Assembly (NCBI GenBank): GCA_963921795.1
Contig: OY997661.1
Span: forward strand, 37,502,820-37,566,819
Direction: 5' to 3'
Length of the DNA stretch: 64,000 nt
From: Nannobrachium achirus
Lineage: Eukaryota; Chordata; Actinopteri; Myctophiformes; Myctophidae
The notes under the pieces are model-generated. The model searched no databases. It had not been told where the DNA came from and saw only the letters and a list, made by a program, of their open reading frames with translations. A program made the position numbers and the translations under genes. Below are positions 2,694-61,244 of this stretch, in pieces. Numbering within the stretch: position 1 is the stretch's first letter; every line of letters starts with the position of its first letter.

Positions 2694-4939
2694 ATAATAA
2701 GAAGGTAGTGACGATAAACTGGCCGGGCATGCGCTCATGGGAGCCAAAACTGGGACCGGAAGTTGTGTGAAATGCATTGGGGTCTATGGCAGCCTGATGG
2801 CAGCCAGCTGGACTATGCTTGTAAATAAATTATTTCTGAACGATTGTGTCCTTTTTCAGTTAATCAGTCCAGGAATATATAAAAATGCATATCACAGGTT
2901 GTTTTCCAATCAATAGTTGTTTGTATGTGCACAATTTTATTGAGGCATCTAAACAGCGCCATGTGGTTCGTTATTGTGCACCTAACCCACTTCTGTAGAG
3001 TGTGTGTGTGTGTGTATAAAGTGTGAAGTGTGTTTGCAGTGTAATGGTTTGAACCTTCACCCTACTATTTCTCCTCCCCCTACAGTCGATTGTAGTTTTG
3101 CATCTAATATATGCCTGTCACCTTTTTCATTTTTAATTAATTTAATATTCACTTATAAACTGCTGAATTAAACTGAAACCTTCTATTGGAAACGTGATAT
3201 TTTATAGTGTGATTTAAAAATAAATGTACTTCATTATTCTTGAGAAGCACGTCTCTGCTCCCCTTATTTTACAAACAAACCTGTGTTGCTATTCATGTGG
3301 TTATTTTAGCACTTTACTCCTTGGGCGAAACGTGGCGTTGTCGATGTTGTTACTATGTTATAAATCTGCCATGGTTACACATGTATTGAAAATAACCATC
3401 AACAAGCTCGCATCGCAATGTTATTTTCAAAAGATTTGTATATATTTGATTACTTGTCAAATGCCACACTCTGCATAATGAGCACTTTCTACTTTTGGTA
3501 CAGTACTTTATTTGAAAACAATACTTTAATTTTTAATTCCTGAGTTTAACTTGTGAGATTATTTCTAAATTGCAGTAGTGATTGATTGGTTTGCAGAGAC
3601 AAAGGTACCTAGCAGTAGGCTACAGGGGGAGAGCCTGCACGATTGTAATGTTTTTCACATTTCAATATTTTACTCAGATTCTTTTACCTACAGGCAAAGG
3701 ACCTACACATGTCTGCTATCATAAGCCACTTCAAGTTTTTCATTTTATAAAACAGATCATTATTAAACCGAAAGTGGATGCTATTCCGATGTTACATTTG
3801 AAGCCCACATGGGATTAATTGTAACGGCATGATTTACAAATGTAACCGAGCTAAAGAACCGCATTGAACAAATAGTTTTTAGTTTAAATCAATTATATTT
3901 CATTCAAGCAACTATTTTACATTGTTTTCATACCAAGGATGTGATAAGATACTATATCATATGCCAGGAACATATTAAATATTAAATATTATATTATGAT
4001 TAATGCAACACGTTATACATCCCTAATCTGACTTAACATACCCTGTAATTGAATGTCAGCTGACTGTCAGCTGACTGAACGTTTTGAACGAAACACCTGG
4101 TTGTTAAGTTCTGAAAGGAAGCACTTGCACTGTACAAGCTCTTGTAGTATCTTGTAGTGAGCTTGTAGATCTGCTACTTTTGGTGAATATCCCGATAGAA
4201 TAGGGATGCTGGGGTTTAGTGATTGATAATGTATAAACATTTATTTATTTTAAATCTGTCCTAATGACAAATTTAAAGGAGCCTCTACGCACACTCAAAA
4301 GTGTGCAAAATCATGTTCTTTATTTTCAGTTAAATTTCGGTTGAAAGCTTTTGGTCATAGAACTTCTTCAGGCATGCAGCACCTCACAAATCTATTGGCA
4401 GATGAGTGGTGGTCCTTTCACTATTATCCGTCCTCAGATATTTTCTCAAGTTGTTATATATTTGTTAGGCCTATGGACAGTATTTGTCATTATTCCAATA
4501 ATAATAAACATGCTGCATCTGCATAAAGCAAGTATTTTCTACTCCCATGTTGTTGAGTATTAATAAAATATCTGTTTACGGTAGATTTAGAGAAGATAAA
4601 AAATATGCGATTAAATATTTGAATCGATCCCCAGCCTTACTAACTAAACAATACCTACTTGACGAGATTCACACGGAAGTAGTTCTGGTCCAAAACGTAA
4701 ACAGTAGTGGAAGATGGATGCCTTTATGCTTGTGCTATTTTAGCGAGAATCCAATGCCATCCTTGGCATCAAAAGTGTTTTTTGGAGAAAATGGACTGTA
4801 AAGATGAGAAAGACTGTTGGTTTCAATGGGATGGGATCACTATTGTGTGCACATGGATGCGCGATGATGATGAATCGGCGACTCCACCAGTGCCAGGTCT
4901 TTCACCGGACTGCGAAAAGCCTCATGTAAAAGTATCTCA
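2694..4939. other. AT-rich stretch without a supported gene
   Basis: Many short frames, none with a recognisable domain. It holds a short GT run at 3000-3015, a half copy of the window-wide palindromic motif at 4159-4176 (gagcttgtagatctgcta), and phrases at 4205 and 4620-4640 (gctggggatcgattcaaa on the minus strand) that resemble fish hAT ends. The last is inference only. Confidence 0.4.
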
Positions 4940-5093
4940 TGTTATATACTTAAATGGTTTCCTGTGGAAATAAGCTTAGTCTTTTCTAGGATCTCCTTTT
5001 AGTAGACCTTGTACCAGTGAACTGTACCGTCATGAAACTGCACTTTTCCTATGCAAACTTCTAATAAAGTCTTCAATCAATCAATCAAAGGTA
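4940..5093 (+). mobile_element. LINE 3' untranslated tail, 5'-truncated
   Basis: This segment ends in aataaagtcttcaatcaatc, a simple TCAA-repeat tail of the kind many non-LTR retrotransposons carry. It matches, in inverse orientation, the 3' end of the LINE remnant at 50095-50838, including gtagaccttgtaccagtgaa and ttcctatgcaaacttctaat. Only the untranslated tail is present here. Confidence 0.7.
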
Positions 5094-5126
5094 GGTAGCC
5101 AGTGCCAGCTTTACTGTATATACAGT

Positions 5127-5201
5127 ATATTTCGCGAGTATTCACGGGATCGGCACGCAGGATACCTTTTAATATTTCACGAGTATTCGCGGGATCGGCA
5201 C
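5127..5201. repeat. Two-copy 45-bp local duplication
   Basis: A 30-bp core (atatttcgcgagtattcacg, then ggatcggcac) at 5127-5156 recurs at 5172-5201 with two substitutions. Confidence 0.75.
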
Positions 5202-6043: not shown

Positions 6044-6063
6044 GGGGGGGGGGGGGGGGGGGG
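6044..6063. repeat. G homopolymer, 20 nt
   Basis: Uninterrupted G run; length is likely polymorphic and prone to sequencing error. Confidence 0.9.
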
Positions 6064-6167: not shown

Positions 6168-7527
<1,360 letters not shown>

Positions 7528-7700: not shown

Positions 7701-7780
7701 AGCGTGCCCTCGCGCTTCACGCTTCACTGCACACGGCCGGTCCCTCACGTCCCTCACGCGAGGGCACACTCCACGGGTTT

Positions 7781-7796
7781 GCCCGTCTGACACCAA
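7781..7796 (-). promoter_or_regulatory. Putative tRNA primer-binding site of the TRIM
   Basis: Minus-strand TTGGTGTCAGACGGGC directly abuts the 5' LTR. TGGTGTCAG is the 3' end complement used by many vertebrate retroelements primed by a leucine tRNA; the assignment is from memory. Confidence 0.6.
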
Positions 7797-7951
7797 TGTA
7801 ACGTTTAGCAGACTGAGTGAGGCAGCTCGCTCCAACCGGGACGCAAACCCCAGCCCCCCACTCAGCAGACGAGGAAGCAACCCGCTGCCCCAAGAAGGCT
7901 AGCCCACTTGGCGGAGCGAGTTACGGCCTGATCTCTTGCTGGGTCGTTACA
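7797..7951 (-). repeat. TRIM 5' LTR (minus-strand sense)
   Basis: TG...CA ends with a 7-bp terminal inverted repeat TGTAACG/CGTTACA. It differs from the other LTR at a few bases (for example gggacgcaaac against ggtacgcgaac), so the pair is not brand new. Confidence 0.75.
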
Positions 7952-8994
7952 CTATGAACAGGAAGCCGTGGGCGGGGCCAGGAATAAGGTGAATAGCATA
8001 GTAATATATAAGAAGGCTAGATAGCTCACGAACGCTGTTGGCCAATGGGGACTGACGTCGCCCCAGGTCGGCCATCTTGGGACAGGACCGATCGCCCAGT
8101 ATAACATTAATGTCTATAGTGCATGTACTAGATGGGGGCTTCAAGATGGGGCTTCAATGTTATTTTATTAAGGACATAACAAAACCAAATAGACCTATTT
8201 CTTAACTAAAAGAATACATTTTATTTCAGCACTGCAACTGCAAGTAATTTCTCAATCAGTAACATGACCAATCCTCCCCTCCCTCTGAGATCAGACCACC
8301 AACAGCTAGACGAGTAGTACATACATAATATATTTTTAAACCCCATGCTACACAGGTAGCTTTTGATGGCCCTTGATATTGAAGTAGGTTACATGCAGTA
8401 CACCTGTTTGAAGGTTCAATGGACCAATATTATATTGAACAGCTCAACAATGATCAATGAGGTTGGGGGTTAGACTGGAACTTTGGGGGGCTGTTGAGAG
8501 GGCGGTGGCGTGGCAGTGTAGAGAGATAAACAGGATACCATCAAGTATACCTGTAGTATTAGAACTGAATAGCAAAATCACAGTGGGTTCCTTTTCTCAG
8601 ATGGCATTCAGTGCACTACTCATGGGCTCATACTTTCTTGCTTGGAGTAAACTTTAAATGTAAAGCCTGAAAGGAGGTAAACCAGACTCAAATACATCCA
8701 TTGGGGAAAAATGTACCCATTATTTAACATCTGCATTACTTATTTTACAAGAAGACTACACAATTATAGAATGTAGAAGAATGTTTTATTTGATCCTTGT
8801 TTGCCTGTTATCTCTCCTATGGTACCAGATCAATACAGCATGGAATTGTGGATAAAATGTTTCCAAATGACCACTGAGGAACATTGGCTCGAAGCCAAAA
8901 TTAGGCTTCTGTATGTGCACACAGAGTTTGAGCGAATGGCCTTTAAAAAGGACCGTTTTGGGTCGCTTCTGTCTCACGTTGTCTTTCTGTAAGC

Positions 8995-9683
8995 TAAGCT
9001 TTAAAACGGCCATTTTAGCAATATGGTGCAGCCTCAGCTTAAAAAATAGGGACACAAATAACTTCAACAGTGTATGGTGGTGACTGTCAATGCCCGAGCA
9101 AAAACACATCCTCTGAACCTATCCTCCTATCCTATGGGCTGTTTTCATCTGGAATCTGCAGATGCCTGGCGAACGACCCACTCTGCTGCCTTCACCATGC
9201 CTTCAGAACAGATGGTATCACCAGACCTCCATTGCTTTTCAGGGTCAGCAGGTGGTAGCTCTTGTCCTTACAGGCAGATTCAGCATCGGTCACAAGGCTG
9301 GCCCGGCAGACATCACAGGACAGCTTCTTCAAAGTGCGTCGCACAACAAATCATGAAATTAGCAGTAGACAGATTATTATAATACTTAATAAGCATGGAG
9401 ACTTACTTTTTTTTTACTATCATGTATCATGTAACATGCGTCAATCTAATACACCTTGAATTGTTGTTGGCCAATGATGCATAGGCCTACCCTGTGAAGA
9501 TGAGCAGGGAAGTTGAAGATGGTGGGCACAACACCAGCTTTAGGCCGGACAGTCTGCCCAGTCCTGTCAAAGTCTTCACTTCTGAAGTGCTCTCTGCAGA
9601 GCAGTGTCCTGTCATTTGCAACAAAACCATCCCTTCTTAGGGCAAGTTCCCACTGTATCCTGCTCTCTAGGCTTTTGGGAAAC
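8995..9683 (-). pseudogene. Broken THAP-domain / P-element-like transposase, copy 1
   Basis: A putative exon at 9491-9683 encodes the second half of a THAP zinc finger: FPKSLESRIQW, then LCREHF (the C-x2-H ligands) and VVPTIFNFPAHL at its end, matching the family's AVPTIF box. It has an acceptor ttctttttttaaag and a donor GTAGGC. A second block at 9145-9340 reads LKKLSCDVC, then LLTLKSNGGLVIPS and, after a frameshift, VKAAEWVVRQAS, as in THAP9/P-element transposases. A third piece near 9000-9100 reads FKLRLHHIAKM. The first CCCH half is absent and a hairpin MITE lies where it should be. Stops and frameshifts make it non-functional. The THAP call is firm; the P-element link is an inference from the second block. 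Confidence 0.7.
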
Positions 9684-9893
9684 CTTTAAAAAAAGAAATG
9701 GGATTTACTTATTTGCTCAATGTAAATGCCTAAGGTACATTGTAATGTATGTAAATGAATAACTATGTGAGAAATGTGTGGAATAAAATGTATATATTAA
9801 AAAATATATATATTAAAAAGAAATGGGAGAAAAGGTACCCAGATATACCCAGATAACATTTCCACCCTTCTTTCCTTTAACATTAAGGGTAAA

Positions 9894-10230
9894 GGCTCTT
9901 TTCCACCGGCAGCGATAACGATGACGATAACGATTTAAAAAAGTGGGTTTTCAATTGAAGTGGATCGGCAGCATCCACCCAACACCGATAAAGACAACGA
10001 TAGCCGACAACTACATCGTTAGGATCAACAACGATGTGGTTAAGATCACAGTGATATGGAACTGGGTCTCTGACAAACAGCTCGAGGTGCGCTCTGAGCG
10101 AGCGGCTGTTAATTGGCGCCTCTTCACATTGATGTCCGATAACTTTATCGGACATCAATGTGAAGGCATAATTATCGCTGTGATATTTTATGGCTATCGT
10201 CATCGTTATCGCTGCCGGTGGAAAAGGGCC
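9894..10230. mobile_element. Hairpin MITE, copy 1
   Basis: Ends ggctcttttccaccggcagc and its inverse form arms of about 38 bp, continuing as gataacgatgacgata. A second perfect palindrome is nested inside at 10123-10164. No coding. It sits next to the THAP exon and may have removed the upstream exon. Confidence 0.85.
10123..10164. repeat. Perfect 19-bp stem with 4-nt loop, copy 1
   Basis: ttcacattgatgtccgata, loop actt, then the exact reverse complement. It is the internal cruciform-prone core of the MITE. Confidence 0.95.
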
Positions 10231-10241
10231 ATAATGATGTA

Positions 10242-10407
10242 CACACTAAAAACTGCTGGGTAGATTCATCTACCCAAAATCTGAGTAAAAGATGGTTTAC
10301 CCATTAGCATTATGGGTTATTATAATGGTGATTGTATGTATAATGGGTTGTTTTATACAGCTCATACATAACCCAGCTGCTGAGTAAAATTGTTTTACTC
10401 AGTATTG
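10242..10407. mobile_element. Truncated TA-target MITE
   Basis: Left end CACACTAAAAACTGCTGGGT of the element that is complete at 12921-13721. Cut at the duplication breakpoint. Confidence 0.8.
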
Positions 10408-10460
10408 AGAAAATAGATTTGTTCTCCATCCAACACAGAAGACTCTCCTCTTCAGACGGT
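10408..10460. repeat. 53-bp junction filler between the duplicated units
   Basis: Not present at either outer edge. Bases 10413-10452 are the reverse complement of 15106-15145 with one mismatch, which suggests copied (templated) filler made during repair. Confidence 0.8.
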
Positions 10461-11674
10461 GCCCGTCTGACACCAATGTAACGTTTAGCAGACTGAGTGA
10501 GGCAGCTCGCTCCAACCGGGACGCAAACCCCAGCCCCCCACTCAGCAGACGAGGAAGCAACCCGCTGCCCCAAGAAGGCTAGCCCACTTGGCGGAGCGAG
10601 TTACGGCCTGATCTCTTGCTGGGTCGTTACACTATGAACAGGAAGCCGTGGGCGGGGCCAGGAATAAGGTGAATAGCATAGTAACATATAAGAAGGCTAG
10701 ATAGCTCACGCACGCTGTTGGCCAATGGGGACTGACGTCGCCCCAGGTCGGCCATCTTGGGACAGGACCGATCGCCCAGTATAACATTAATGTCTATAGT
10801 GCATGTACTAGATGGGGGCTTCAAGATGGGGCTTCAATGTTATTTTATTAAGGACATAACAAAACCAAATAGACCTATTTCTTAACTAAAAGAATACATT
10901 TTATTTCAGCACTGCAACTGCAAGTAATTTCTCAATCAGTAACATGACCAATCCTCCCCTCCCTCTGAGATCAGACCACCAACAGCTAGACGAGTAGTAC
11001 ATACATAATATATTTTTAAACCCCATGCTACACAGGTAGCTTTTGATGGCCCTTGATATTGAAGTAGGTTACATGCAGTACACCTGTTTGAAGGTTCAAT
11101 GGACCAATATTATATTGAACAGCTCAACAATGATCAATGAGGTTGGGGGTTAGACTGGAACTTTGGGGGGCTGTTGAGAGGGCGGTGGCGTGGCAGTGTA
11201 GAGAGATAAACAGGATACCATCAAGTATACCTGTAGTATTAGAACTGAATAGCAAAATCACAGTGGGTTCCTTTTCTCAGATGGCATTCAGTGCACTACT
11301 CATGGGCTCATACTTTCTTGCTTGGAGTAAACTTTAAATGTAAAGCCTGAAAGGAGGTAAACCAGACTCAAATACATCCATTGGGGAAAAATGTACCCAT
11401 TATTTAACATCTGCATTACTTATTTTACAAGAAGACTACACAATTATAGAATGTAGAAGAATGTTTTATTTGATTCTTGTTTGCCTGTTATCTCTCCTAT
11501 GGTACCAGATCAATACAGCATGGAATTGTGGATAAAATGTTTCCAAATAACCACTGAGGAACATTGGCTCGAAGCCAAAATTAGGCTTCTGTATGTGCAC
11601 ACAGAGTTTGAGCGAATGGCCTTTAAAAAGGACCGTTTTGGGTCGCTTCTGTCTCACGTTGTCTTTCTCTAAGC

Positions 11675-12362
11675 TAAGCTTTAAAACAGCCATTTTAGCA
11701 ATATGGTGCAGCCTCAGCTTAAAAAATAGGGACACAAATAACTTCAACAGTGTATGGTGGTGACTGTCAATGCCCGAGCAAAAACACATCCTCTGAACCT
11801 ATCCTCCTATCCTATGGGCTGTTTTCATCTGGAATCTGCAGATGCCTGGCGAACGACCCACTCTGCTGCCTTCACCATGCCTTCAGAACAGATGGTATCA
11901 CCAGACCTCCATTGCTTTTCAGGGTCAGCAGGTGGTAGCTCTTGTCCTTACAGGCAGATTCAGCATCGGTCACAAGGCTGGCCCGGCAGACATCACAGGA
12001 CAGCTTCTTCAAAGTGCGTCGCACAACAAATCATGAAATTAGCAGTAGACAGATTATTATAATACTTAATAAGCATGGAGACTTACTTTTTTTTACTATC
12101 ATGTATCATGTAACATGCGTCAATCTAATACACCTTGAATTGTTGTTGGCCAATGATGCATAGGCCTACCCTGTGAAGATGAGCAGGGAAGTTGAAGATG
12201 GTGGGCACAACACCAGCTTTAGGCCGGACAGTCTGCCCAGTCCTGTCAAAGTCTTCACTTCTGAAGTGCTCTCTGCAGAGCAGTGTCCTGTCATTTGCAA
12301 CAAAACCATCCCTTCTTAGGGCAAGTTCCCACTGTATCCTGCTCTCTAGGCTTTTGGGAAAC
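11675..12362 (-). pseudogene. Broken THAP-domain / P-element-like transposase, copy 2
   Basis: Duplicate of 8995-9683 created by the segmental duplication, with the THAP exon at 12170-12362. It shares the same disruptions, so the gene was dead before it was duplicated. Confidence 0.7.
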
Positions 12363-12572
12363 CTTTAAAAAAAGAAATGGGATTTACTTATTTGCTCAAT
12401 GTAAATGCCTAAGGTACAATGTAATGTATGTAAATGAATAACTATGTGAGAAATGTGTGGAATAAAATGTATATATTAAAAAATATATATAATAAAAAGA
12501 AATGGGAGAAAAGGTACCCAGATATACCCAGATAACATTTCCACCCTTCTTTCCTTTAACATTAAGGGTAAA

Positions 12573-12909
12573 GGCTCTTTTCCACCGGCAGCGATAACGA
12601 TGACGATAACGATTTAAAAAAGTGGGTTTTCAATTGAAGTGGATCGGCAGCATCCACCCAACACCGATAAAGACAACGATAGCCGACAACTACATCGTTA
12701 GGATCAACAACGATGTGGTTAAGATCACAGTGATATGGAACTGGGTCTCTGACAAACAGCTCGAGGTGCGCTCTGAGCGAGCGGCTGTTAATTGGCGCCT
12801 CTTCACATTGATGTCCGATAACTTTATCGGACATCAATGTGAAGGCATAATTATCGCTGTGATATTTTATGGCTATCGTCATCGTTATCGCTGCCGGTGG
12901 AAAAGGGCC
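12573..12909. mobile_element. Hairpin MITE, copy 2
   Basis: Duplicate of 9894-10230. Confidence 0.85.
12802..12843. repeat. Perfect 19-bp stem with 4-nt loop, copy 2
   Basis: Identical to 10123-10164 by duplication. Confidence 0.95.
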
Positions 12910-12920
12910 ATAATGATGTA

Positions 12921-13721
12921 CACACTAAAAACTGCTGGGTAGATTCATCTACCCAAAATCTGAGTAAAAGATGGTTTACCCATTAGCATTATGGGTTATT
13001 ATAATGGTGATTGTATGTATAATGGGTTGTTTTGTACAGCTCATACATAACCCAGCTGCTGAGTAAAATTGTTTTACTCAGTATTGGGTAGTTTTAAACT
13101 TAAGTTGGTCACCTGGAAGCATGCTGGGAAAAGCATTTCTCTAGGTTTTCAGGGATTAATCTAAGCTTTTGGTAGCTAAAAATGCTAAATGTATCATATC
13201 CATGTGTCTGCCTTGGCAAGCTGACTGTCATATGTCAGAATTTCATTTGTCAGTATTTGAGCCAAAACCAGTGAAGAACTCATGATACATTTGGGATTAT
13301 CATGTTGAGCTACTCTAATCTACTCTGATTATAGCTTTTCAACATTGTTGTATATATTTACAATTATGTACCTTTATGTTGATATTGCTATACTTGGAAC
13401 AAATTATCTGAGAAAAAAATCCTGAAACAAATCTTATCTTATATTAATGTCAAATAATATTAGCATGGTCATTTACGATGAGTAAAATATTCTACCCACA
13501 TGTGGGTAAAATATATACTAAATAATAGTGGTTGACCCAGAGCTGAGTAAAAAATTCTACCCAGGATGTGGTAGAATATCTTACTACGGTGCTGGGTAGA
13601 AAGGACCTACCCATTTTTCTGTGTAAGATTTACTACTGTTGGGTAGGTCCAATAGTTACCCAGGGGTGGGTTATAATACAACCCAGATCGGGTTATTTTC
13701 AACCCATCCGTTTTTAGTGTG
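12921..13721. mobile_element. TA-flanked MITE, mariner-like
   Basis: Ends CACACTAAAAAC and GTTTTTAGTGTG are inverted repeats, and a TA dinucleotide lies immediately outside each end, the target duplication of Tc1/mariner elements. The interior (801 bp overall) is a patchwork of gggtaga/ctaccca and gagtaaaa motifs in both orientations. No transposase frame. Confidence 0.8.
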
Positions 13722-14165: not shown

Positions 14166-15401
14166 TTACTGGTATAATATTGTCTTATTTGTGGCAGGTG
14201 ATCCCACAGGTTCCATTTGGATACTCCTTTCATTGGAGCAGCCAGCAGCAAAAAAATCAGGCATCTTCTCAACAGACTTCACAGACAGTAGGCCTATTTC
14301 CGTATCTAAATGTAAGATATTTTTAACAAACCAAACCGCTTGGAAATCATGTAATTCTGCCTCTCCCACCATTGTAACATTGCTGTCAACTTTGTAATAA
14401 TATATAGGTCTAGACTAGCTCACACTCATAGCCTCTTTCTTGTCTCTTAGCCTGCAGCTAAAAAAAATACAACAATATCCACACAAAGAAATGTCATTTA
14501 GACAAAAGATTAGTTGTCATGAAATCGTTATTGGTCTCAAGAAAACCTGATAATATTTGAAAATCTCAATTGTTGTCTTGATAAACGTGTGCAGGTAGCC
14601 ATGCACTTAACTATGCTGCATGCTCTTTTTTCAAAATGAAAAGCTTCAATTTCAACATGTCAACCAGTCTGAATCATAGCCACGTTAATAATGTTTGTAA
14701 TAAACCAAACCGTTAGTAAATCCGTCAAGATTTCAGAGAGTAACGAGTATTTAAGTGTGCAGATCACTCACCTTACATGCACTCCATTAACAAACACCAG
14801 GTGTTACTATACATTATCTGTGGTTTCTATGAAGCAAATAAACAGAAAAACAAAGATGTGAGTGACCAACAAAGATGAAATGTTGTTGCTCAAATTGGCC
14901 TCAAGGTGCCTCTCTAACACCACGATGGGTTCAGCATCATTATACAGTTGCCAGAACTGATTCAAAACAGGAATATTTGTCACAACACAACCAGACAAAC
15001 TAATTGCAATGGATGTCAACAACACAGAAATATCGACCTAAACCATGGATTACTGGATGTAGTGGAGTCTATTATTAAGTCTATTAACATATTAAAATGA
15101 GCACAAAGAGGAGAGTCTTCTGTGTTGGATGGAGAACAGATCTATATGAGGCGTCTGGCGTTCCGCACTGATCTACAAGCACAACGTGTGGCCATGCAAC
15201 ACATTGTTGTCTTGCAGTTAGAGCTCCACTGTGCAGAGAGGCTCAAAGCCAGCAGCTGTGCCCGGCAGGAGAACTCAGTCATGGAGGAGAAGTACATCAC
15301 ACACTCCATGCTCATCTCTGGCAGCTTGTTTTGTAAATGATCTGTTTTTAACTGCTAGTTTAAAACTTTGTGGAAATACTCACATAAAATAATAATTCTG
15401 A
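14166..15401. other. No supported gene
   Basis: Anonymous sequence. Bases 15106-15145 are the apparent template for the filler at 10413-10452. A variant of the palindromic motif (gatctacaagcacaac) lies at about 15171. Confidence 0.4.
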
Positions 15402-28771: not shown

Positions 28772-29695
28772 CGGAGCCGGTTCCATCATATTTTTATGAC
28801 CGGTTCCTATATCGGTTCCTGGAATTTCTCATAAGCGTTCATTTGGGCCAGTGACTGTGGTGACGTCTCAATTCATGTGTGAGTGAGGTGGATACGCCCA
28901 CTCAGAGCAGCTCTGCGCCCGCTGATTTAGAATCAGAATGCCAGCGTCCTTCGATCAAGACAGGCTGAGTCATGGAGCTAACGTTAACGCAGCAGCAAAT
29001 ATCGAACAGACAAAACTCCTCACGAGTGTGATGGTTGCACTTTACAAGAGAGGGAAAGGGAAATGATCATGCAAAGTGCACAAAATGCAGTGCAATCCTT
29101 TCGTGCAAATGTGCAGTCTCCTAAAATCTGTACCAGTGACTGCAGCTGCCGCCTGCCGCTTCACTTTCTTCTCGTTGCTAACCACGACGCGCAAAGTCCA
29201 TTTCAATCGGCTTGTACTGCAGTTCATTCATGGTGTTACATTATGACGGACGCAACGTTTGTCTGACGTTTTATTCCTTTCAGCTTTCATGCTGATAGCA
29301 GCTGGGAGGATGACGACGAAGGACTAGCCGATCTACAAGCTCACAGCGCGTCGCATGCAACGCGTTGTGAGCTTGTAGATCGGCTATTCATCGTGCCGTT
29401 AAATAACTGTATTCTCCACTGTTTGAACGTCCACCCTTACCCATGCATTCATTATATACGTTGTTGTGGTTAAGTTGAAATAGTAGTTATACAAGTTGTA
29501 TAATTATTTTGCTGTAGTAATCAGGGAATCACTTTATTATAATAATAATTCAAGAAAATATATATCTATAGGCCTATATATATTTTATATATAAATAAAT
29601 ACACTTCCGGAACGTTATAGGAACCGGTTCTACCCGGAATCGATAAGGGGGAACCGAAAAAGATTCGGAATCGGTTCAATCCAAACGGATCCCAA
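28772..29695. repeat. GGTTCC-rich MITE-like repeat enclosing a palindrome
   Basis: ccggttcc phrases at the left (28777-28820) face aaccggttctacccgg and gaatcggttcaatcc at the right. This resembles a fish hAT-type MITE; edges are approximate. The 62-bp palindrome at 29325-29386 lies inside. Confidence 0.45.
29325..29386. repeat. 62-bp near-perfect palindrome, type member of a window-wide family
   Basis: tagccgatctacaagctcac, a CG-rich centre with gcatgc, then the inverse arm. Only two base pairs mismatch and there is no loop. Half and full copies recur throughout the window. Confidence 0.95.
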
Positions 29696-35385: not shown

Positions 35386-35770
35386 TTTTAGCACAACAAT
35401 CCTACTTTTGGACATAGTATACCGCACTATGTAAACATGCCATTGTGAATGGGGGGTCTCCCTCCTGTGAGAAGTCGTGTCGCAAATTCAACGGTCGTGA
35501 GCTTGTAGATCACTCTCGACTGCGACGCCGGAAACTGCCGCACACCTTCTGCGCAATGCATGAAGGGACTTTGGAAACTTGTGGATTGAAGAGCAGGGAG
35601 GCAAAACCACCCCAGTTGTATTAATAATTAATATAATCTACAATTAAATTGGACAAAATCACATTTTAGTATAAAAACAAAAGTTACATATTGCCCATTA
35701 ACCAATTTATCCTATTATTTGGTCGGAAATCATTTGAGCAAGTAACTTTTTTAGTTTTGAGTTTTTTTTT
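35386..35770. other. No gene seen
   Basis: Anonymous; one half copy of the palindromic motif (gagcttgtagatc, 35499-35511) beside a CpG-bearing patch. Confidence 0.45.
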
Positions 35771-36489
35771 TATGCCTTTATTGATAGGACAGTAGACTGA
35801 CTTGAAATGGGTAGTGACATGCAGCAAAGGTCATCGTCATCGGAATCCAAACCTGCAACACACTGTCAGGCATCAGAGGTAATGGTTGACCCAAATGTAT
35901 GGCTATGTTTAATATATTGTTTAATATATTTTTATTTCAATGTTATTAGTTACTATACACACAAAAGTGCTTAAAATCTTAACAGTATAAATTCACAGGA
36001 TTCATTTTCATTTACATGTAGGTTTATAGTGGGCAGATAGGGTTCGGTAGCTTCCTAAAAGACTCTTTTGTCTGAACCTTTGATGGAACTGACATGTGGA
36101 TGATAAGAAAAAAAAAAATAAGATAAGAAAAGTATCCTGGAAGGTCTGGAGTCAGGACTGTTAACATTCTATAAAGGGATGGCATAAAAGGGATATTTAA
36201 CTTAATAGGAAAAAAATCTTACTCATGAGCTTATGTAGATCTGCTATTTTCTCAATATTTCTCTGTGGAACTGAGTCAAACTAAATGTAATGCCTAAGTT
36301 CAAATGTGATTATTTGGGGGGGGGTGTCGCGACCTGAAAAAGTTGAGAAGCACTGATGTACAGTAAGCGATTATTCCTACCGTAGGAGACAGTGTCACAT
36401 AAATTAGAAGGCGTGGCTTGTGATTGGCTGGAGCGGAGGTCTGGAGCGCTCGGCTGTGGTCACTTGGATCGCACGGATGTGAATGTTAA

Positions 36490-36610: not shown

Positions 36611-37862
36611 TGACGCTGGCTGAATGGAAAAGAAGTCCTCCTTCCTCCACCGTCTCCAACGTTTGGAATAATAGCGTACAGTAACCTGCAGGCATATCAT
36701 CACTAACAGCTGGATTTGCTAACACAACTGTAGATCTACAAGCTCGCAAAATGGTGATTTTCACTATACTGTTGTACAAATTGGCCTATATAGAACAAGG
36801 CCAGGGGTCAGCAACCTTTTTGACATGAAGTGTCATGTTTTTATTTTCTTGATGGTCAGTGTGCTGTGCAATGTTAAGTGCAACGTTAAGTTTACTTATG
36901 AGTTATGACATGACACCACATCAAAATTAAATATGATATAACTGATATAGTTCTTCAATCAGGACATTTTAATGAACATTAGAGCAATAACCCACTTATC
37001 TCCCAGACTCCCTCCCACCCAGTCAGAGTGCATCAGAGTTGGATGAATGTAGAATTATGTGCAGTAATTTGCATACGGATGTGAGGGGACTTAATTTAAT
37101 TGACTACATTTTTTACATTTTATTTTAAAAGAAAATTCCGCCAGTGTGCCAGTGATCACCCTCCCCTGTGCCAATGTTTGCACCCTATGGTGCCTATAAG
37201 GTTGCCTACCCATGCAGTAGGCAGGGCTTCAGCATTTCCTGTTGTGGCAGTTTACTTACTTGGTATGTTTCTGAGCTCTTGCGATCAAAACAACACCTTG
37301 TCACCTCCCACTGAAATGAGCCTAGCTGTCTCTTTCCTGTTGTGCAACTGCCACATTTTAACCCTTTTAGAATTGGAAAGCATCTGTGCCACTTTAGATT
37401 TTAACCACTTTAACTATCATGTTATACTTTAGCTATTCAGAAATATCAGATATACAAGCTTGAAAATTGTTGTGAAAATTTGCTTTTTAATTTAAAGGGA
37501 ACACTATTTTTGAGATGGGGGTCGGCGGCCAAATTCATAATTTTCGGGGGCCTTGACATGAAAGGATTTGAGCATCACTGATATACTGTAGCAAAACATA
37601 TGTTTTTCAGAGAACTGTTAGGATTTAGAAGACATTTAGAATCGACCTCAGTCTAAATGGGTCAATCCATTTAAACCTGTTACACCATTTTATGTTGTTG
37701 TGACACGCTTCTGTGTCATTTTAATTGTTGCCACATTGTATCGCTGTTGTTGTTGTCGGGCAGAAAGCTCTTTATCTCCATATTCTAACTCTCTCCCCCT
37801 ATACATCACCTGTACACACCAAAATCGATCATATGACAGCATCACACAAAAGTATAAAAAAA

Positions 37863-37925
37863 TAGCAGATCTACAAGCTCAAAACGCAGTGCGAAGTAAC
37901 GCGTTTTGAGCTTCTAGATCTGCTA
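37863..37925. repeat. 63-bp palindrome, family member
   Basis: tagcagatctacaagctcaa, aacgc, 13-nt loop and inverse arm, one mismatch. Followed by gctatttttgtctc, as after the copies at 41777 and 46868. Confidence 0.93.
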
Positions 37926-37959
37926 CTATTGCTATTTTTGTCTCCACCAGCCGGAAGGC

Positions 37960-38900: not shown

Positions 38901-39092
38901 TAATCTGAATTCTGAAAAGTAACTTGACAGATTATAGGCTATACCAACATAATTTATTTTTTCTTCTTTTTATATATATATTTATATATTATTTTTTTCT
39001 AGAAAACTTAAGGTAGGATTTTGAAGGCGTTTTTTTTTATCGTCCTCAGGTCTAAATCCAAGCATATGGGCCCAACATTCAGAAAAAAGATT

Positions 39093-39318
39093 GCAGATCT
39101 ACAAGCTCACAATGTGTTGCAACACAACATGTAGGCAGTGATGGATATCTTCATAATAATTCCATCTACAGTATATTGTTCTGTCTGTCTGTCACTGTCT
39201 ACCAAGAGAGGTTGATACAAAGGAAGCATTTGCTCTTACAGTACATATTAGCACATTCTGTCCCTTTCTACATTCTACTTTCTGCATTGCATTTCAAGCT
39301 TGTGGATCTCCTACTTTT
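39093..39318. repeat. Palindromic motif arms spread around a 180-bp insert, unit A
   Basis: gcagatctacaagctcacaa at 39093 and aagcttgtggatctcctac at 39297 face each other across about 180 bp. The family may therefore be termini as well as a compact hairpin. Confidence 0.6.
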
Positions 39319-40476: not shown

Positions 40477-41776
40477 TATGCCTTTATTGATAGGACAGTA
40501 GACCGACTTGAAATGGGGAGTGACACGCAGTAAAGGTCATCGTGATTGGAAACCAAACCTGCAACACGCTGTCAGGCAGTTAGTGGAGTTAATGGTTGAC
40601 CCAAATGTATGGCTATGTTTAATTATATTGTTTAATATATTTTTATTTCAATGTTATTAGTTACTATACACACAAAAGTGCTTAAAATATTAACAGTGTA
40701 ATTTCACAGGATTCATTTTCATTTCCATGTAGGCTTATAGTGGGCAGATAGGGTTCGGTAGCTTCCTAAAAGACTCTTTTGTCTGAACTGACATGTGGAT
40801 GATAAGAAGAAAAACAAATAAGAAAAGAAAAGTATCCTGGAAGGTCTGGAGTCACGACTGTTAACATTCTATAAAGGGATAAAGGGATATGGCATGAAAG
40901 GGATATTTAACTTAATAGGAAACAATTCTTACGAGGTGTTGTGAGCTTGTAGATCTGCTATTTTTCAGCAACCTTTTTGACATGAAGTGTCATGTTTTTA
41001 TTTTCTTGATGGCCAGTGTGCTGTGCAATGTTAAGTGCAACGTTAAGTTTACTTATGAGTTGACATGACACCACATCAAAATAAATATATAAATATATAA
41101 ATAAATAAAAATTCTATAACTGAAATAGTTCTTCAATCAGGATATTTTAATGAAGAGCATTTTAATGAAGAGCAATAACCCACTTATCTCCCAGACTCCC
41201 TCCCACCCAGTCAGAGTGCATCAGAGTTGGATGAATGTAGAATTATGTGCAGTAATTTGCATATGGATGTGAGGGGACTTCATGTAATTGACTACATTTT
41301 TTAAAAGAAAAATCCTCCAGTGTGCCATGTGATCACCCTCCCCTGTGTCAATGTTTGTACCCTACGGTGCCTATAAAAGGTTGCCTACCCATGCAGTAGG
41401 CAGGGCTTCAGCATTTCCTGTTGTGGCGGTTTACTTATTTGGTATGTTTCTTTAGCTCTTGCGATCAAAACACCACCTTTTCGCCTCCCGCTGAAATGAG
41501 ACTAGCTGTCTCTTTCCTGTTGTGCAACTGCCACATTTTAACCCTTTTAGAATTGGAAAGCATCTGTGCCACTTTAGATTTTAACCACTTTAACTATCAT
41601 GTTATACTTTAGCTATTCAGAAATATCAGATATACAAGCTTGTAAACTGTTGGGAAAATTTGCAATTTAATTTAAAGGGAACATTATTTTTGAGATGGGG
41701 GTCGGTGGCCAAATTCATATAATTTTCCTTGACATGAAATCGATCATATGACAGCGTCACACAAAAGTATAAAAAA

Positions 41777-41839
41777 TAGCAGATCCACAAGCTCAAAACG
41801 CAGTGCGAAGTAACACGTTTTGAGCTTCTAGATCTGCTA
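41777..41839. repeat. 63-bp palindrome, duplicate of 37863-37925
   Basis: Same element in unit B with a few substitutions. Confidence 0.93.
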
Positions 41840-43044
41840 CTATTGCTATTTTTGTCTCCACCAGCCGGAAGGCATGGGGAGAAACTATGTTTTCGTCTCC
41901 GTCTGTCCGTCTGTCTGTCCGTCCGTCCGTGTGTCCGTGTGTCCATCCATCCAGTTTGTTACCAGCTAATCTCCGGCACCATTGGCCCGGTCACTACCAA
42001 ACTGTGCACACACACTCCCTGGATGCCAATTCAGAACCTCTGTCCCACATTTTTCACATGGGCGCCACCAGGAGGCCGATTACGCAAAACAAGCTTTTGG
42101 CCAGTAATAATATTGTTTTTGTCCAAAAATCACGCAAATCGGTAGACAGTATCTCTACAGTCATGTGATTGACATGGATTGATTGACATTGATTGACATT
42201 TCATCCTGATTGGCTAAAACTGGCTTCCAAATTTTGCAGGATTGGTCCGTTTTGAATAAAATGCCCGAAATCATGAACACAGTGTGTGATTATTTTGAAA
42301 TTGTTCATGCACATTCCCAATAGGCCGAGGAATAAATGCCACTTTATTTCAAATCAGCCTCATGGTGGCGCTATAACAGGCCGATTTGTGTTTTTACCTA
42401 TAATTCCACTGATAGTGTACAACTTTGTATCTGCACTCCCTAGAGGCGAAGGAAAAACCTTTGCCCTGCATTTTTCATATCTGCCCTTTTTAGCAGAGGC
42501 TATATAAAAAGAAAATCCTATAATTCCTTGAGATTTTACCCAAAAATCATGCAAATCAGTACACAGTATCTCTATAGGCATGTGATCAAGACGGCTCTGT
42601 CCAATATTTCATAATCCATCTTAATTGGCTAACATTGGCTTCCAAAGTTTGCCGAATTGTCCCACTTTGGACAAACTTACTTAAATCATGAACGCAGCTT
42701 GTGATTACAGAGACATTCTGCAGGCACATTCCCACTAGGTCAAGGAACAAATGCCACTCTTTTCACATTGGCCTGTTATAGTGCCACCAGCAGGTCGACT
42801 TTTGCTAAACAAATTTTTGGAACAAAATGCCTCAAATCATGCATGCGTCACATTGCCGTTAAAGACCAAAGAAGACATGGCACCCTTTTCACATTTAGAG
42901 GTAGCAGGACCTACTGTACCTGGCCTTTTTTTATTATTATTATTTTTTTCTAGAAAACTTAAGGCAGGATTTTGAAAGCTTTTTTTTTATCGTACTCAGT
43001 TCTAAATCCAAGCATAAGGGCCCAACATAAAAAAAAAAAAGATT

Positions 43045-43266
43045 GCAGATCTACAAGCTCACAATGTGGTGCAACACAACATGTAGACAGTGATGGACAT
43101 CTTCATAATAATTCCATCTACAGTATATTGGTCTGTCTGTCTGTCTACCAAGAGAGGTTGACAAAAAGGAAGCATTTGCTCTTACAGTACATATTAGCAC
43201 ACTCTGTCCCTATCTACAAGCCCAAAGCGTCCCTTTGCATTGCATTTCAAGCTTGTGGATCTCCTA
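43045..43266. repeat. Palindromic motif arms around a spacer, unit B
   Basis: Duplicate of 39093-39318. Confidence 0.6.
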
Positions 43267-43656
43267 CTTTTTATGCTCGTGTGATGCTGTTGTGTGATCA
43301 AGTAGGGCAGGGCCGTTAATTCACGAAAAAACTCAAAAGGTTAAAACAGAGATAAGAGGCCTCTGCCCGACAGCAACAATATTCTACATTGAAACATATA
43401 ATGCACACAAAGTCTATTCTGACTTCATAAGTAGCTTCGTAACATTGCTGGCCATTTTGGAGGAATAATGTAGTACGTAAACTTTGTCAGTTAAAGTCAG
43501 AGCTGGATCCCTGAATTGGCCTGGAAAAACCCCTTTGCTCATTTTAGTTTTACCAGTCGCACCAATGAACTGCATCGGCGGAGGAGGTCTAGTGTGTGCA
43601 ACACCGCGTGCATGGACATGTATGAATGGCCGCGCGCGTGCACGACGGATGTGCAC

Positions 43657-43855
43657 AGTGGTGCAAAGTAACTAAGTACATTTACTTAAGTACTGTACGA
43701 TTTTGAGATATTTGTAGGCTACTTTACTTGAGTATTTCCTATTTCCAATATTTTTACTTATACTACCAACCTTCTTGGATCCAAATATTGTATACTTTTA
43801 CACCACCACATTTATTTGAAAACTTTAGTTACTAGTTACTTTGTAGATTGATTAT
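43657..43855 (+). repeat. Common fish repeat (gtggtgcaaagtaactaagt)
   Basis: gtggtgcaaagtaactaagt, acatttacttaagtac, ctttacttgagtatttcc and tacttttacaccaccaca in the order I know from abundant teleost MITEs. An inverted fragment lies at 54640-54722. Confidence 0.7.
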
Positions 43856-43912
43856 TATTACAAAATGTATAATAACCACTTCATCCCTATATACATTTCG
43901 GCCTTTTGAAAA

Positions 43913-43970
43913 TAGCCGATCTACAAGCATGCAACACATTCTGAGCTTGTAGATCTGCTATTTTCTAATG
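43913..43970. repeat. 58-bp imperfect palindrome, family member
   Basis: tagccgatctacaagcatgc ... gagcttgtagatctgcta, flanked by aaaa/tttt as at 46868. Confidence 0.9.
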
Positions 43971-44007
43971 TTTTTATACTTTCTAATATTGTTATACATA
44001 TGAATAA

Positions 44008-46867: not shown

Positions 46868-46930
46868 AAAATAGCTGATCTACAAGCTCTCGCAGCACGA
46901 CACGTTGAGAGCTTGTAGATCAGCTATTTT
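46868..46930. repeat. Palindrome with perfect 24-bp arms, family member
   Basis: aaaatagctgatctacaagc, tctc, short loop and exact inverse. Confidence 0.95.
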
Positions 46931-49160: not shown

Positions 49161-49644
49161 GTGGCCGAGAAATGAGCGGTGCAGGGCGGATACATGTCTG
49201 ACTGGCCCTCACGGCTGCACGCTGGAGGTCCAGTGACTGGCAGTGAGCAGCAGCGCAGCGTAGGGGTCTCTGTCTCTCTCCTCTCACACACGCGCAAGCT
49301 CCGTCGAAAACATTCAATCTACAAGCTCACATTAGACGTGCCGCCTCTCTTTCTGCATGCATCACAGTCACAATTTGTCACAGAGCTTGCAGATCGTCTA
49401 TAAACCATAGGGCTGTTAAGTCTGACATCATTTTGTAGGCAGAGGAGAACTTGTGACTGTGATGCATGCAGAAAGAGAGGCGGCACGTCTTTAATGTGAG
49501 CCTCTAGATTGAATGTTTTCGAGGGAGCTCGCGCGTGTGTGAGAGGAGAGAGACAGAGAGACCCTGACGCTGCGCTGCTGCTCACTGGACCTCCAGTGTG
49601 AAGCGGCAAGGGCCAGTCAGATGCAACGCTCATTTCTCGGCCAC
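49161..49644. repeat. 480-bp palindrome with arms near 200 bp
   Basis: Left arm 49161-49373 pairs with 49451-49644 through gtggccgagaaatgagc, ctggaggtccagtg, gagcagcagcgcagcg, atctacaagctcacatt and gtgactgtgatgcatgc. A 77-bp loop remains. The palindromic motif forms part of the arms. Confidence 0.88.
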
Positions 49645-53890: not shown

Positions 53891-54130
53891 TACATAACCG
53901 GAGAAATATAGGTTATGTCTGTGCTTTTCATCACTTGAAAGCAATAGTAGCGCAAACGCACATTGGCATCAGGCCGCAAAAAGTAGCTGCATTGTGAGCT
54001 TGTAAAACGGCTATTTTCTAATGGCCATGTATGGTTGAAGTGGTTAGACTACTGTAAGTTTTGTAATAATAAATGCAAGCACAAACGCAAACATTCGTTT
54101 AGAATTAGGCTAAAGGGAGGGGGGGGGGGG

Positions 54131-54168: not shown

Positions 54169-54639
54169 GAGAGAGAGAGGCGGCGCGTAATGAAGGCTAG
54201 GGGAGGCTGTGCGCCTTCCCAAATGCTGCTGCTGGGTATTTCCAAATGATATAACCTAATATAAAGTAGGCTATGGACGCTGGCTGCACACAGCATTAGG
54301 CCTATATAGACGGTGGCGGCCGCGGCGCTGAGAACAGCTGGCTGTACAAGCTTCAGTCGTACAGTATCCTACACACTCACATCGCGTTGCGGATGTGCCC
54401 GGTGTGACTCTGAGCATGGAGGTCTGCTATTCTCTGCACGCAACATCATCGTCCGGAATTCAAAATGCACTTGGGTAAAAGTAGGCTACGAAAGTGATGG
54501 CATCAAAATAGGCTCACGACGTGTCACAGCGCAGCGCGACGCGTTGTGAGCTTGTAGATTGGCTTTTTTCAAATAGTCTATAAAACGGGGCTAAAGGCAC
54601 TATGTTTTATAATAGGCCTATAATAATTGACATCAGCAA
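53891..54639. other. No gene; half palindromes and a GA run
   Basis: Contains G and GA tracts (54117-54178), and two palindromic-motif halves: gtgagcttgtaaaacggcta near 53995 and gtgagcttgtagattggc at 54549, the latter preceded by a CG-rich acgcgtt loop remnant. Confidence 0.5.
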
Positions 54640-55193: not shown

Positions 55194-56235
55194 TAAATAT
55201 TTACACCAGCCTTTGGGCAGCACTAAGTAACCCATCTCTATGGGAGTAGAGCAACTACACCTATACTAACGTGGCAGACAGCATTATATTGGCTATTTAA
55301 TTGAATTCGACAATGAAACGACCCATCCGTTTATATAAAACATACTTTAAGCTCTATATACATTTCAGCCATTTGAAAATAGCCGATCTACAAGCTCACA
55401 ATGTGTCTGCTATTAACAGAGTAATTATATATTGCAGGATTGATACTTTTATTCGAGTAATTCATTAGAGTTGCTACTTTTTCAACCACTATTGTTAGCC
55501 GCGGCAGCACAACAGCGAGGGGGGGGGGGGGGGGGGGGGGCGTGAAAAATAAATAAATAAAAGATCCGGAGAAAACTGCATGTTTGTGCAGCAGCTTTAC
55601 AGGGCAGTGAACGAGGCAGACAGCACTTCCTGGTCACATGATTTTGCGCTGCATTTTGGGAAATGGAGTTTGTTTCATCACCGCGGTAGCCAAATACAGT
55701 AGCTACATTACAGTATAGTTTACTGTACAACGTGTCAAACGCGTCGATGGGCACACGTAGACATCAAAGAGATTGACGTGTGGACACCACGTGGGCATCA
55801 AATTAGTTAATAAACCCTTCTCCCTCTCACAACACTGTAACCTGTGTGGTGTCGTCAGGACCCAAACATTGGTAACTTCCTACCAGCCTGTTAATAAAGC
55901 CCTTAAATACCCGTACCCAGTGGTGCTTTGGGATTTTCTTTTCAGGGCAGACGGTCATTTATTGACGTCACATGCACGCGCGTGCACGCGCCTCTTTAGT
56001 CAATTTAGAAAGAAAGGATGTTAGCAGATCTAATGCCATGGTGGGAAAACAATAGTTTGCTAGTCTTAATTACATTTGCATTGTTACTTAAGATTTTATT
56101 TTCTACTTGCTTTTAATTCATTTAGAAAATACAGCGCAGCTAGTAGAGAAACAAAGTTTGCCTTGAACGAATCTCAAACACTAAATACCACAGTAATGGA
56201 GCAATAATGAGGACACACACACACATCGACACATG
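55194..56235. other. No supported gene
   Basis: A palindromic-motif half at 55380-55399 (tagccgatctacaagctcac), a 22-nt G homopolymer at 55519-55540, and otherwise anonymous DNA. Confidence 0.45.
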
Positions 56236-59099: not shown

Positions 59100-60069
59100 G
59101 TTTGCTTGTCTTCAACTATAGTGAACAACATGCAAAACACTTGACTGTGGAATACGCACACTGTCCTGTAGATATGTTGAGCAAGGATGATGTGGTCACT
59201 GTAGATGGGTTAGTGTCTACTGCTGACATGGTGTGGGTTGGAGGGATGGAGGTGGAGCATAGTCTTGAGCTCTGCAGAGACAGGGCTGAGTGTAATGCCA
59301 TCCAGACTGCTTGCATCCTTGGCATCAGTATTATATGTCTGTTCCAGTAGCATGTCAAAAGAAACACTACTGTTGTGGCTGCCATCTGCTCGTCAGCCAA
59401 CAAATACACTTGCCATCAGTGCTTCATGTACCTCTGAAGCTGTTTCCGGTCATTTCTTCATCTAAGGCAAATACAAAGGTTAAGATTGCTGCCCGTACTT
59501 GTAGTGGCCTACTAAAGTGAGGTAGGGTAGCATTCTTGCTGATTCACAGAGATGTCCTGTCCAGTCACCTTCCCGCTCTTAGTAGATAAACCTTTGGAGA
59601 ATATCTGACATCTCCAGTAAGTTTGCCCAGAGGACTGCAGTTGGTTGCCCATTGAATGAGCAGCTGATCTCCTAGGACTGCCATCTCTGGATGCCTCGTC
59701 ATTTCTAACTTCTGCCAATTATCTCTTTTTCAAACAGGACTTTGAGGGCATGTAAAGTTTGGTAGTATTATGTCTTTTCAACAAACATCTTCTTGACTGT
59801 TCCTTCTCGACAAAGACTTGCTGCAACAAGCAGATCATCTGCCCCTAGATCCCTGATAATCTTGCAAATAGCCTTCATGTTCAGTAGTTGTGAGCTTGGT
59901 GGAAGCCTCCCAGCAACAGGACTACATTGCCAAACTCATCTTGGTGCTGTCTGATCTCCAGTGATAATGTAGTGAAGAGTTGTTTCATCTCTTTTCTGAG
60001 GACAGAAGGATCAGTTGGCGATGCTGGGATGAGTGGAAGGTAGCCAATAATGCTAGCCTGTGGGTGAAA
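59100..60069 (-). pseudogene. Decayed repetitive ORF of unknown function, 3' part
   Basis: Reading the minus strand from 60060 in one frame: ASIIGYLPLIPASPTDPSVL, RKEMKQLFTTLSLEIRQHQD, then VVLLLGGFHQAHNY, and after small shifts KAICKIIRDLGADDLLVAAS, LCREGTVKKMFVEKTYYYQT and LHALKVLFEKEI. Further on (59440-59250) come SFDMLLEQTYNTDAK and LKTMLHLHPSNPHHVSSRH. The succession LGGFH, an alpha-helical block and EQTYN.DAK resembles a large ORF found many times in fish genomes whose role I do not know, probably transposon-borne. A hAT-like element divides it from 61253-61490. Confidence 0.5.
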
Positions 60070-60077
60070 GTTTACAC

Positions 60078-61244
60078 TAGGGCTGACCTTTGAATACTTT
60101 TATCATAATCGAAGCTCCTTCGAAGCTTTCTTTCGAACTTCGAAGCTTCGATGACGGCGACGGGGGGGGGGGGGGGGGGGGGGAGAAGCAAAAGTTTATC
60201 GGTTACATAAGTGATAACCGTTAAGGAAATGTGTCTAAAAATGCGCGATTTACACAATTTTAAAAGGGAAAACACACCAGTTTTTTCCTTGTAATAAAGC
60301 TCCTTATTTTCATTAAATAGTACGACAATACAATGAGGAAGAAGAAGATACGAATGTTTTCTATATTAAAGAAAAGTGTTTTTGCAGTACAGTAGGATTG
60401 ACATAATCACATCACGTCTGTAATGTAACACACCGTGGCTGCAACAGCAAACAGCAGCAGCGCGACTCAAGAGCCCCATATAACAAACAGATTAACTCCC
60501 AAGTCCCAAGGTGTACTGTACACGCAAATGTAATAGTATATTTTATAGTAAATAATTGCACTGCAGTGTGTCTGATGTAACGTTCCACTCATCAGCCGAA
60601 AGCTGACGGTCAGACTCAGACAACGTAGTTCTCTATGCGGGCGCAACTAGTGAGCTTGCAGATCCGACATAAACTTGTAATTATCAACACCACGACAATG
60701 TAACCCTAGCAAGTTGTTTTTAAGCTCATTTGTCCTCTTTAAAACGGGATCGACGCTGACGGGGTCCGATTTGTAAAATCCAATTGTCGCTGTTTGTTTC
60801 CTTGCGTTGAGTTGTGTGTCTGTCAGCGTGTGGAAGTGTGCATGGATGTTACACCGACAATGGGTGGCAAACGAAATGTGTGACTGCATCGCATAGTTGC
60901 ATTGGGTGATGATGTTACTCAGACATTGGTGTTACACATTTCGGTACCAAACGGATGTCGGTGTATATGTGACAGCGCGCTGTCTTTTCTTTTTTTTCTT
61001 CAGCGTCGACCATTTGGATGGCTTCATGCATGCTTTTGTTGTTGTTGGCTTGTTATTGTTAACACGTGTGTGAGAAGGGGGTGACGCTATCATGCTAGAG
61101 TGGAGCGAGGCGCATGCAAGCTAAGGCACGCGGCCCCCCCAAAGGACAAACGGCCGCGGCCGATTATTCGAATTTATTTTTCAAATTCGAATACCGTGCC
61201 TTCGAACGAAGCTTCGAATATTCGATTTTTTTGGGTCAGCCCTA
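60078..61244. mobile_element. Non-autonomous hAT-like element with perfect target duplication
   Basis: Ends TAGGGCTGACC and GGTCAGCCCTA (one base differs further in), with the 8-bp duplication GTTTACAC at 60070-60077 and 61245-61252. The ends continue as ttcgaag-rich inverted sequence. The 1,167-bp interior has a G homopolymer (60162-60183), one half palindromic motif (gtgagcttgcagatccgac, about 60651) and no transposase. Removing it with one duplication rejoins the flanking decayed ORF. Confidence 0.93.

Follow-up and report, generated by a model that had tools for sequence, protein, structure and literature searches.

How does a palindrome of only some 62 nucleotides (nt) come to stand in many different surroundings, and what makes its two arms alike? 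The question is raised by a window of 64,000 nt from the myctophid fish Nannobrachium achirus (contig OY997661.1, positions 37,502,820 to 37,566,819), the whole stretch of DNA analysed here, in which an earlier note had recognised palindromic elements that share one arm. Our analysis indicates that the palindrome is probably spread by hAT miniature inverted-repeat transposable elements (MITEs), with template switching by fold-back homogenising its arms and inverting its loops. The basic unit is a near-perfect palindrome of about 62 nt, usually with GAAAA/TTTTC shoulders. Its 62-nt consensus, which was typed from the complete palindromes of the window and is its own reverse complement, aligns to the copy at 29325 with 2 differences. 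The 20-nt arm, TAGCNGATCTACAAGCTCAC, has 21 matches in the window when up to 3 mismatches are allowed, against a mean of 0.01 in 100 dinucleotide shuffles of the window, none of which attains 21.

The claim that these elements form one family in differing flanks held far beyond the window. We searched the source genome (1.66 Gb in 564 contigs) with a 15-nt core of the arm, GATCTACAAGCTCAC, allowing one mismatch, and obtained 291,794 and 291,030 matches on the two strands, about 0.58 million recognisable arms, while the reversed control gave 16 and 13. A profile built from selected palindrome copies (37 found) and applied with a locus threshold of E < 0.1 identified 153 merged loci in a 285-kb sample; two of the sampled stretches (L024 and L025) overlap, so that some loci were counted twice and the counts are slightly inflated. 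In 170 kb taken from 17 arbitrary round coordinates the profile found 78 loci, which together occupy 2.9% of that sequence, and an order-of-magnitude extrapolation from this 0.01% of the genome puts the total at roughly 0.7 million copies. The 20-mer arm had no match among viral contigs; a 16-mer version of it was found in 18 of them. Arms also occur in tandem, in 45-bp units with about 12 arms (L027:4102-4627) and at a spacing of 31-53 bp (L024:2155-2730), and palindromes are joined to one another in L028:4826-5001; these arrays are small satellites grown from the palindrome.

The flanks of 132 of the 153 loci recur elsewhere in the sample, and the palindrome is internal to nine dissimilar repeat families, which we call A, B, D, E, F, G, H, J and W. 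Among the matches listed, the matched length within a family is roughly 340-460 bp (A, D, E, H and W), and similarity between families ends about 5-10 nt from the palindrome. Copies with exact flanks number 1,357 for family A, 6,631 for family B and 2,159 for family F in the whole genome, and family B holds two palindromes, one in each of its inverted arms. Ends resembling those of hAT transposons were seen in eight of the nine families, namely CAGGGGCGTCACACC (B), CAGGGACGTGCAG (D), CAGGGGTCTTCAAC (E), CAGTGGTTCTCAACC (F), CAGTGTTGTTT (G), TAGGGCTGTCAC (H), CAGTGGTGCAAAGTAAC (W) and CAGGGGTTCCCAAAC or CAGGGGTCAGC (A-type), with none fixed for J and with the end seen on one side in D, E, F and W. 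They include terminal inverted repeats (for example CAGGGGCGTCA, TAGGGCTGTCA and CAGTGTTGTTT) with the starts CAGNGG.. or TAGGG.. that we take to be typical of hAT elements. The earlier note had named as contrary evidence that all copies should prove to belong to the interior of one known transposon; this holds by half, since the palindrome is an internal part, but of many dissimilar hAT-like families. One family-W copy (L033:821-1700) has its palindrome split, as judged by eye, by an insertion resembling a tRNA-derived short interspersed element (SINE).

The note had also proposed that the flanks be compared for target duplications, and we scanned for inverted ends with direct duplications around 114 palindrome loci, using random anchors as the control. 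Duplications of 8 bp were found at 10 loci (7 elements), against 2.2 per 114 random anchors, while those of 4, 5 and 6 bp stayed near the control (14, 2 and 5 against 15.0, 1.4 and 4.2). The 8-bp duplications, such as TCCTCATG, CTAGCAGT and TTTGGAGA (B), CATGCACA (H), CCAGGCAT (G) and GTCTATAC (A-type, L030), are present for families A, B, G and H, and the scan found none for D, E, F, J and W. One of the ten cases, L042:3367, has ends unlike those of its own family and may be due to chance.

Domains for hAT dimerisation are abundant in the genome (1,653 first-look candidates, of which 150 were scored and all 150 matched), although no coding element with matching ends could be tied to any host family among these matches. 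Some of the domains lie in open frames of more than 600 codons, so that intact genes for hAT transposase may persist. Palindrome matches were present at 4 of 13 hAT-domain loci (L056, L061, L062 and L068), 10 of the 13 being taken from these matches. We rejected the palindrome as a part of autonomous hAT elements on the evidence of L056, the one of the four that was followed: both its palindromes fall outside the part that it has in common with L057, one within a family-F stretch and the other with family-G-like flanks.

The two arms behave differently between families and within them. In 15 representatives compared between families, 92.8% of cells are paired and 12 of 30 pairs have changed on both sides, a number that none of 500 shuffles reached. 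Family A is represented by 75 cores of 63 nt that carry 2.68 differences per copy; when pairs 5 and 29-31 are left aside we found one double change in them, itself unpaired, against 2.1 expected. The 88 cores of family B have no double changes at paired sites against 0.56 expected. With no compensatory double change in A and B, individual copies are therefore not kept paired by selection. The maintenance of the stem that the earlier note suggested is accordingly right only in that stems are re-matched between families; the independent decay of arms that it named as contrary evidence is what families A and B display, one arm at a time, and is not seen between families. A functional or structured RNA was rejected as an explanation, as the window has no Rfam match at gathering score and compensation is lacking within the families (75 and 88 copies).

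The note's other suggestion, copying by fold-back, fared better, because mismatched pairs are preferentially restored and loops are found in both orientations. The consensus of family B has two mismatched stem pairs, 9-55 and 19-45, and in its 88 copies (352 cells) all 37 base changes at these pairs are toward the complement of the consensus partner (17 G>T, 9 C>T, 8 A>C and 3 A>G); for comparison, changes at the 54 paired sites number 58 in 4,752 cells and include 16 transversions. Pair 9-55 was restored in 23 copies and exchanged in 1, in which both partners have changed and are still mismatched, and pair 19-45 was restored in 12, with no other kind of change at either pair. The restored bases occur on several backgrounds. 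At pair 5-59 of family A, 16 copies are restored, 4 exchanged, 5 otherwise changed and 50 unchanged. The loop of family A reads GAT in 48 copies, ATC in 13 and otherwise in 14; that of family B is inverted in 3 of 88 copies, in all of which pair 19-45 is also restored (G.C twice, A.T once); and 21 listed sequences of family F, read by eye, divide into 15 of one orientation, 4 of the opposite and 2 unclear. Both outcomes expected of template switching between inverted repeats are thus seen, homogenised arms in A and B and inverted spacers in A, B and F.

The self-complementarity does not stop at the palindrome. Flank positions 1-4 are mostly AAAA/TTTT, and in 47 copies, several of them from the same family, the left flank of a given copy is complementary to its own right flank as far as position 10-11 and no farther. 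At positions 5-8 and 10 the complementarity is 0.55-0.77, against 0.27-0.41 with the flanks re-paired; position 9 has no excess (0.38 against 0.43). The outer flanks vary from family to family, for example ACTAGTG (A), ATTGTG (F), ATAGTGG (H) and GTGCTG (G). Counted together, palindrome, shoulders and matched flanks make a self-complementary stretch of about 80-84 nt in most families.

Some copies have lost their centre. Genome-wide, 170 family-A sites per strand have 20 nt or less between exact flanks, each site being self-complementary and hence counted on both strands, and in 20 of 50 such sites listed the interior is 14 nt by eye, as expected for a deletion between the GATC of one arm and that of the other. 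For family B, 93 and 79 sites with 24 nt or less between the flanks stand against 3,308 and 3,323 full ones. Of five short sites that were read, L049 matches family A, L050-L052 match family B, and L048 is A-like in its nearest flanks only. Short sites are mostly central deletions.

The explanation that we consider probable starts from a module of about 62 nt that is carried within many unrelated short non-autonomous hAT-like MITE families. Because its place is fixed in each family, the palindrome does not appear to move by itself, and its copy number would be due to hAT transposase moving the host MITEs. At replication one arm would occasionally template the other, by template switching between inverted repeats or by conversion between inverted copies, and mismatched pairs would thereby be restored and the loop inverted. 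Templating in the founder of a future family would fix matched changes in both arms and could extend the palindrome into the flanks by about 10 nt. In the intervals the arms would decay independently, and deletions, frequently at the GATC that the two arms share, would remove the centre. The evidence is good for homogenisation of the inverted repeats and against maintenance of the stem at the level of the copy; that template switching is the cause, that it acts at the birth of families and that events took this order is what we infer. Small RNA, whose reads the earlier note proposed to inspect, is unnecessary for a cause that lies in DNA replication.

Several observations weigh against this explanation. 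Because copies of a family share ancestry, a small number of events may lie behind the 16 restored G>T copies; C45>T, a change within a CpG, may represent either normal decay or an older state; and other families usually have C9.G55 as their pair, so the 7 copies of family B that have it may be older. Conversion from the second, inverted palindrome of family B predicts identical bases. The mismatch is kept in most copies (50 of 75 in A, 64 of 88 in B), the flanks of B and D are little complementary past the shoulders, and the 8-bp duplications are confined to those 10 of 114 loci. At the 4 of 13 hAT-domain loci with a palindrome match, of which L056 only was followed, the palindrome is not demonstrated inside a coding hAT element.

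First among the alternatives, and rather unlikely in our judgement, is that the palindrome is a minute mobile element in its own right, either a MITE like MADE1 with a TA duplication or a single-strand hairpin like Angel, which inserted independently into AT-rich palindromic ..GAAAA-TA-TTTTC.. sites of hAT MITEs and was then amplified by them. MADE1 is a human palindrome of 80 bp, derived from Hsmar1, that forms a free mariner MITE; it is alike in being a very short near-perfect palindrome of high copy number with a possible TA duplication, and it differs in being free, whereas here no transposase-bearing element with the ends of the palindrome was found, none having been searched for genome-wide. 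The TAGC..GCTA ends would allow a TA duplication, most families have the AAAA/TTTT shoulders, and the outer flanks, self-complementary for up to about 10 nt in several families, fit a palindromic target. Sites reading exactly GAAAATATTTTC (2 of the 50 distinct family-A sites listed, by eye) or AAAAATATTTTT (1 of 100 family-B sites listed) could be the empty targets; however, they are rare and equally explicable as deletions between two TA, the near-exact site L052 retains the second palindrome of family B, no clearly palindrome-free host copy was seen in the sample, and no duplication is consistent across families by eye.

The copy at 29325 was the candidate for a free insertion in unique DNA, and as such it was rejected (one copy was tested), because it sits in a multi-copy repeat, family J, that reaches well past it on both sides. 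Genome-wide, its flanks when joined have 70 matches, distributed over 40 sites, with the flanks 54-75 nt apart at 30 sites (its own included), one flank only at 5 and the flanks contiguous at 5. Three contiguous sites that were inspected are central deletions, two of them ending at GATC. The contiguous sites C15:40437024 and C6:56111964 could be empty sites, in favour of a mobile element; the latter is the sole contiguous match shorter than its part of the query.

A related idea, which we regard as unlikely, is that the palindrome is a hairpin parasite of transposons that repeatedly invades AT-rich palindrome centres in hAT MITEs by single-strand fold-back copying, with no transposase of its own, is multiplied by its hosts, and rewrites both its arms and about 10 nt of flank by template switching. 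If this were true, every host family would hold its own self-matched version of the palindrome. It is improbable that the palindrome is instead a cis-acting part of hAT MITEs, a binding site or a structure that aids transposition or escape from silencing, selected in founders so that only capturing MITEs amplified. Stems are re-matched between families, and the palindrome does lie within 650 bp inward of most termini of families B (8 of 9), D (6 of 8), F (7 of 8), H (5 of 6) and A (3 of 3), counts to which neighbouring elements may contribute. Yet family B spread despite its two mismatched pairs, and the palindrome often went undetected within that distance of the termini of E (found at 2 of 4) and of W (found at 1 of 6), a count softened for W by the copy with the split palindrome. 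Descent of all host families from one hAT MITE, with the palindrome as an old conserved core, is very improbable, for the common hAT-like ends and a certain likeness by eye in the outer flanks of A, B, F and H (CTAGTG, CTATTG, ATTGTG, ATAGTGG) are outweighed by between-family matches that stop so near the palindrome and by the two palindromes in the inverted arms of B.

Our literature search found no description of one palindrome common to unrelated hAT MITEs, and the 15-nt core, on either strand, had no match in the text of the literature searched. One likeness is to template switching at short inverted repeats (PMC8604942; see also PMC8794818), which has the same outcomes of arm homogenisation and spacer inversion that we saw in families A, B and F; there the process is described in yeast coding genes and RNA genes, whereas here it can be read on thousands of palindrome copies. 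According to PMC12368964, gadMor-hAT-1784 of Atlantic cod is likewise a non-coding hAT-like element of a fish genome with internal inverted repeats and tandem arrays, but it is about 1.3-1.4 kb long with terminal inverted repeats of about 600 bp made of 167-169-bp tandem units, whereas a 62-nt palindrome is here common to many dissimilar MITE families. Angel of zebrafish (Izsvak et al. 1999), as described in PMC12628747, is also a hairpin-forming teleost repeat for which fold-back of a single strand was proposed as the means of spread; by that description it is a MITE of its own, while our palindrome lies inside other MITEs. PMC12628747 also presents miDNA4 of Xenopus, a MITE with a captured satellite, which likewise has a foreign internal module altered through microhomologies but is a Tc1/mariner MITE whose module is a tandem unit and not a palindrome.

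The presence of the palindrome in MITE families of differing divergence amounts to a natural experiment with a known starting sequence and thousands of copies. It could show how often, in an animal germ line, inverted repeats undergo template switching, loops are inverted and deletions occur at microhomologies; family B alone offers its 6,631 copies with intact flanks for this. The palindrome also raises the question of the route by which one internal module entered many unrelated DNA transposon families, and it warns that covariation of a stem in a repeat is alone no proof of a functional RNA.

The copies in the window are collected in the table below. By our reading of the flanks, complete palindromes stand at 6865, 29325, 37863, 41777, 43913 and 46872; the earlier note had overlooked the first and had started the last at 46868, taking in four flank bases, and its statement that the arms stay paired in each full copy fails at 43913, where TAGCCG faces CTGCTA. 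Its arms around spacers were found again, at 39091, 43043 and 49317-49400. The halves that it listed exist, with qualifications: at least three (53994, 54546 and 55380) are by eye palindromes with internal deletions, the arms at 60650 and 19431 are weak (3 mismatches each), the former going unreported in the profile search of the window, and some are duplicated copies. A segmental duplication of about 4 kb joins 35.9-39.5 kb (35900-39500) to 40.6-43.4 kb (40600-43430), so that 36226/40941, 37863/41777 and 39091/43043 are each one copy doubled by it, and the members of a pair are not independent.

Table. Palindrome copies and their remnants in the window, with one host element
Position	Strand	Feature	Basis
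4157..4176	-	right arm; left side rearranged	
6865..6927	.	complete, diverged palindrome	arm scan, alignment, profile
15168..15218	+	diverged palindrome	alignment, profile
29325..29386	.	complete 62-nt palindrome, best copy of the window	arm scan, consensus alignment
35477..35511	-	eroded arm	profile
36226..36246	-	right half with 2-nt insertion; duplicate partner of 40941	
36725..36754	+	eroded arm	profile
37863..37925	.	complete palindrome, variant TCAAAACGC..GCGTTTTGA	arm scan, flanks, profile
39091..39131	+	left arm and loop; eroded right arm at 39297-39317	
40938..40960	-	right half of palindrome	
41777..41839	.	copy identical in origin to 37863, in second half of the ~4-kb segmental duplication	
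43043..43082	+	duplicate of the copy at 39091, with an eroded right arm near 43250-43270	
43656..44004	+	part of hAT-like MITE (family W), 5' end CAGTGGTG, holding the 43913 palindrome	
43913..43960	.	palindrome inside hAT-like MITE; left arm with 14-nt gap against consensus	
46872..46926	.	palindrome 7 nt short of consensus near centre; ends TAGCTG/CAGCTA	
49317..49400	.	arms flanking a spacer of ~50 nt	
53989..54013	-	right half; left arm shrunk by deletion	by eye
54512..54577	.	palindrome with part of left arm deleted	by eye
55370..55408	.	left arm, deletion, then last 6 nt of right arm (CTGCTA)	by eye

The remainder of the window has features of its own. Eight open reading frames (ORFs), among them those at 20271-21212 and 23130-23732, had no Pfam match at E 0.01; one ORF, likewise without a Pfam match, resembles that of a long interspersed element (LINE). 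A direct duplication with a period of about 2,679 bp occupies 7780-12924, is 99-100% identical where compared and repeats its ORFs. It is followed at 17167-18509 by a large inverted repeat (arms of 125-177 nt, 94-98% complementary) with CGTCA and GTGAC arrays (17603 and 18028) near its centre. The region 20000-24000 is GC-rich (57%) and strongly C-skewed (GC skew -0.42), and contains tandem repeats of 111 bp, 30 bp and other lengths. A CCATATATGGAGAT repeat is both scattered and arranged as a 37-bp tandem array (19150, 25311-25444 and 30870-31194), and interstitial CCCTAA-like (telomere-like) repeats with a 45-bp unit lie at 36498-36600.

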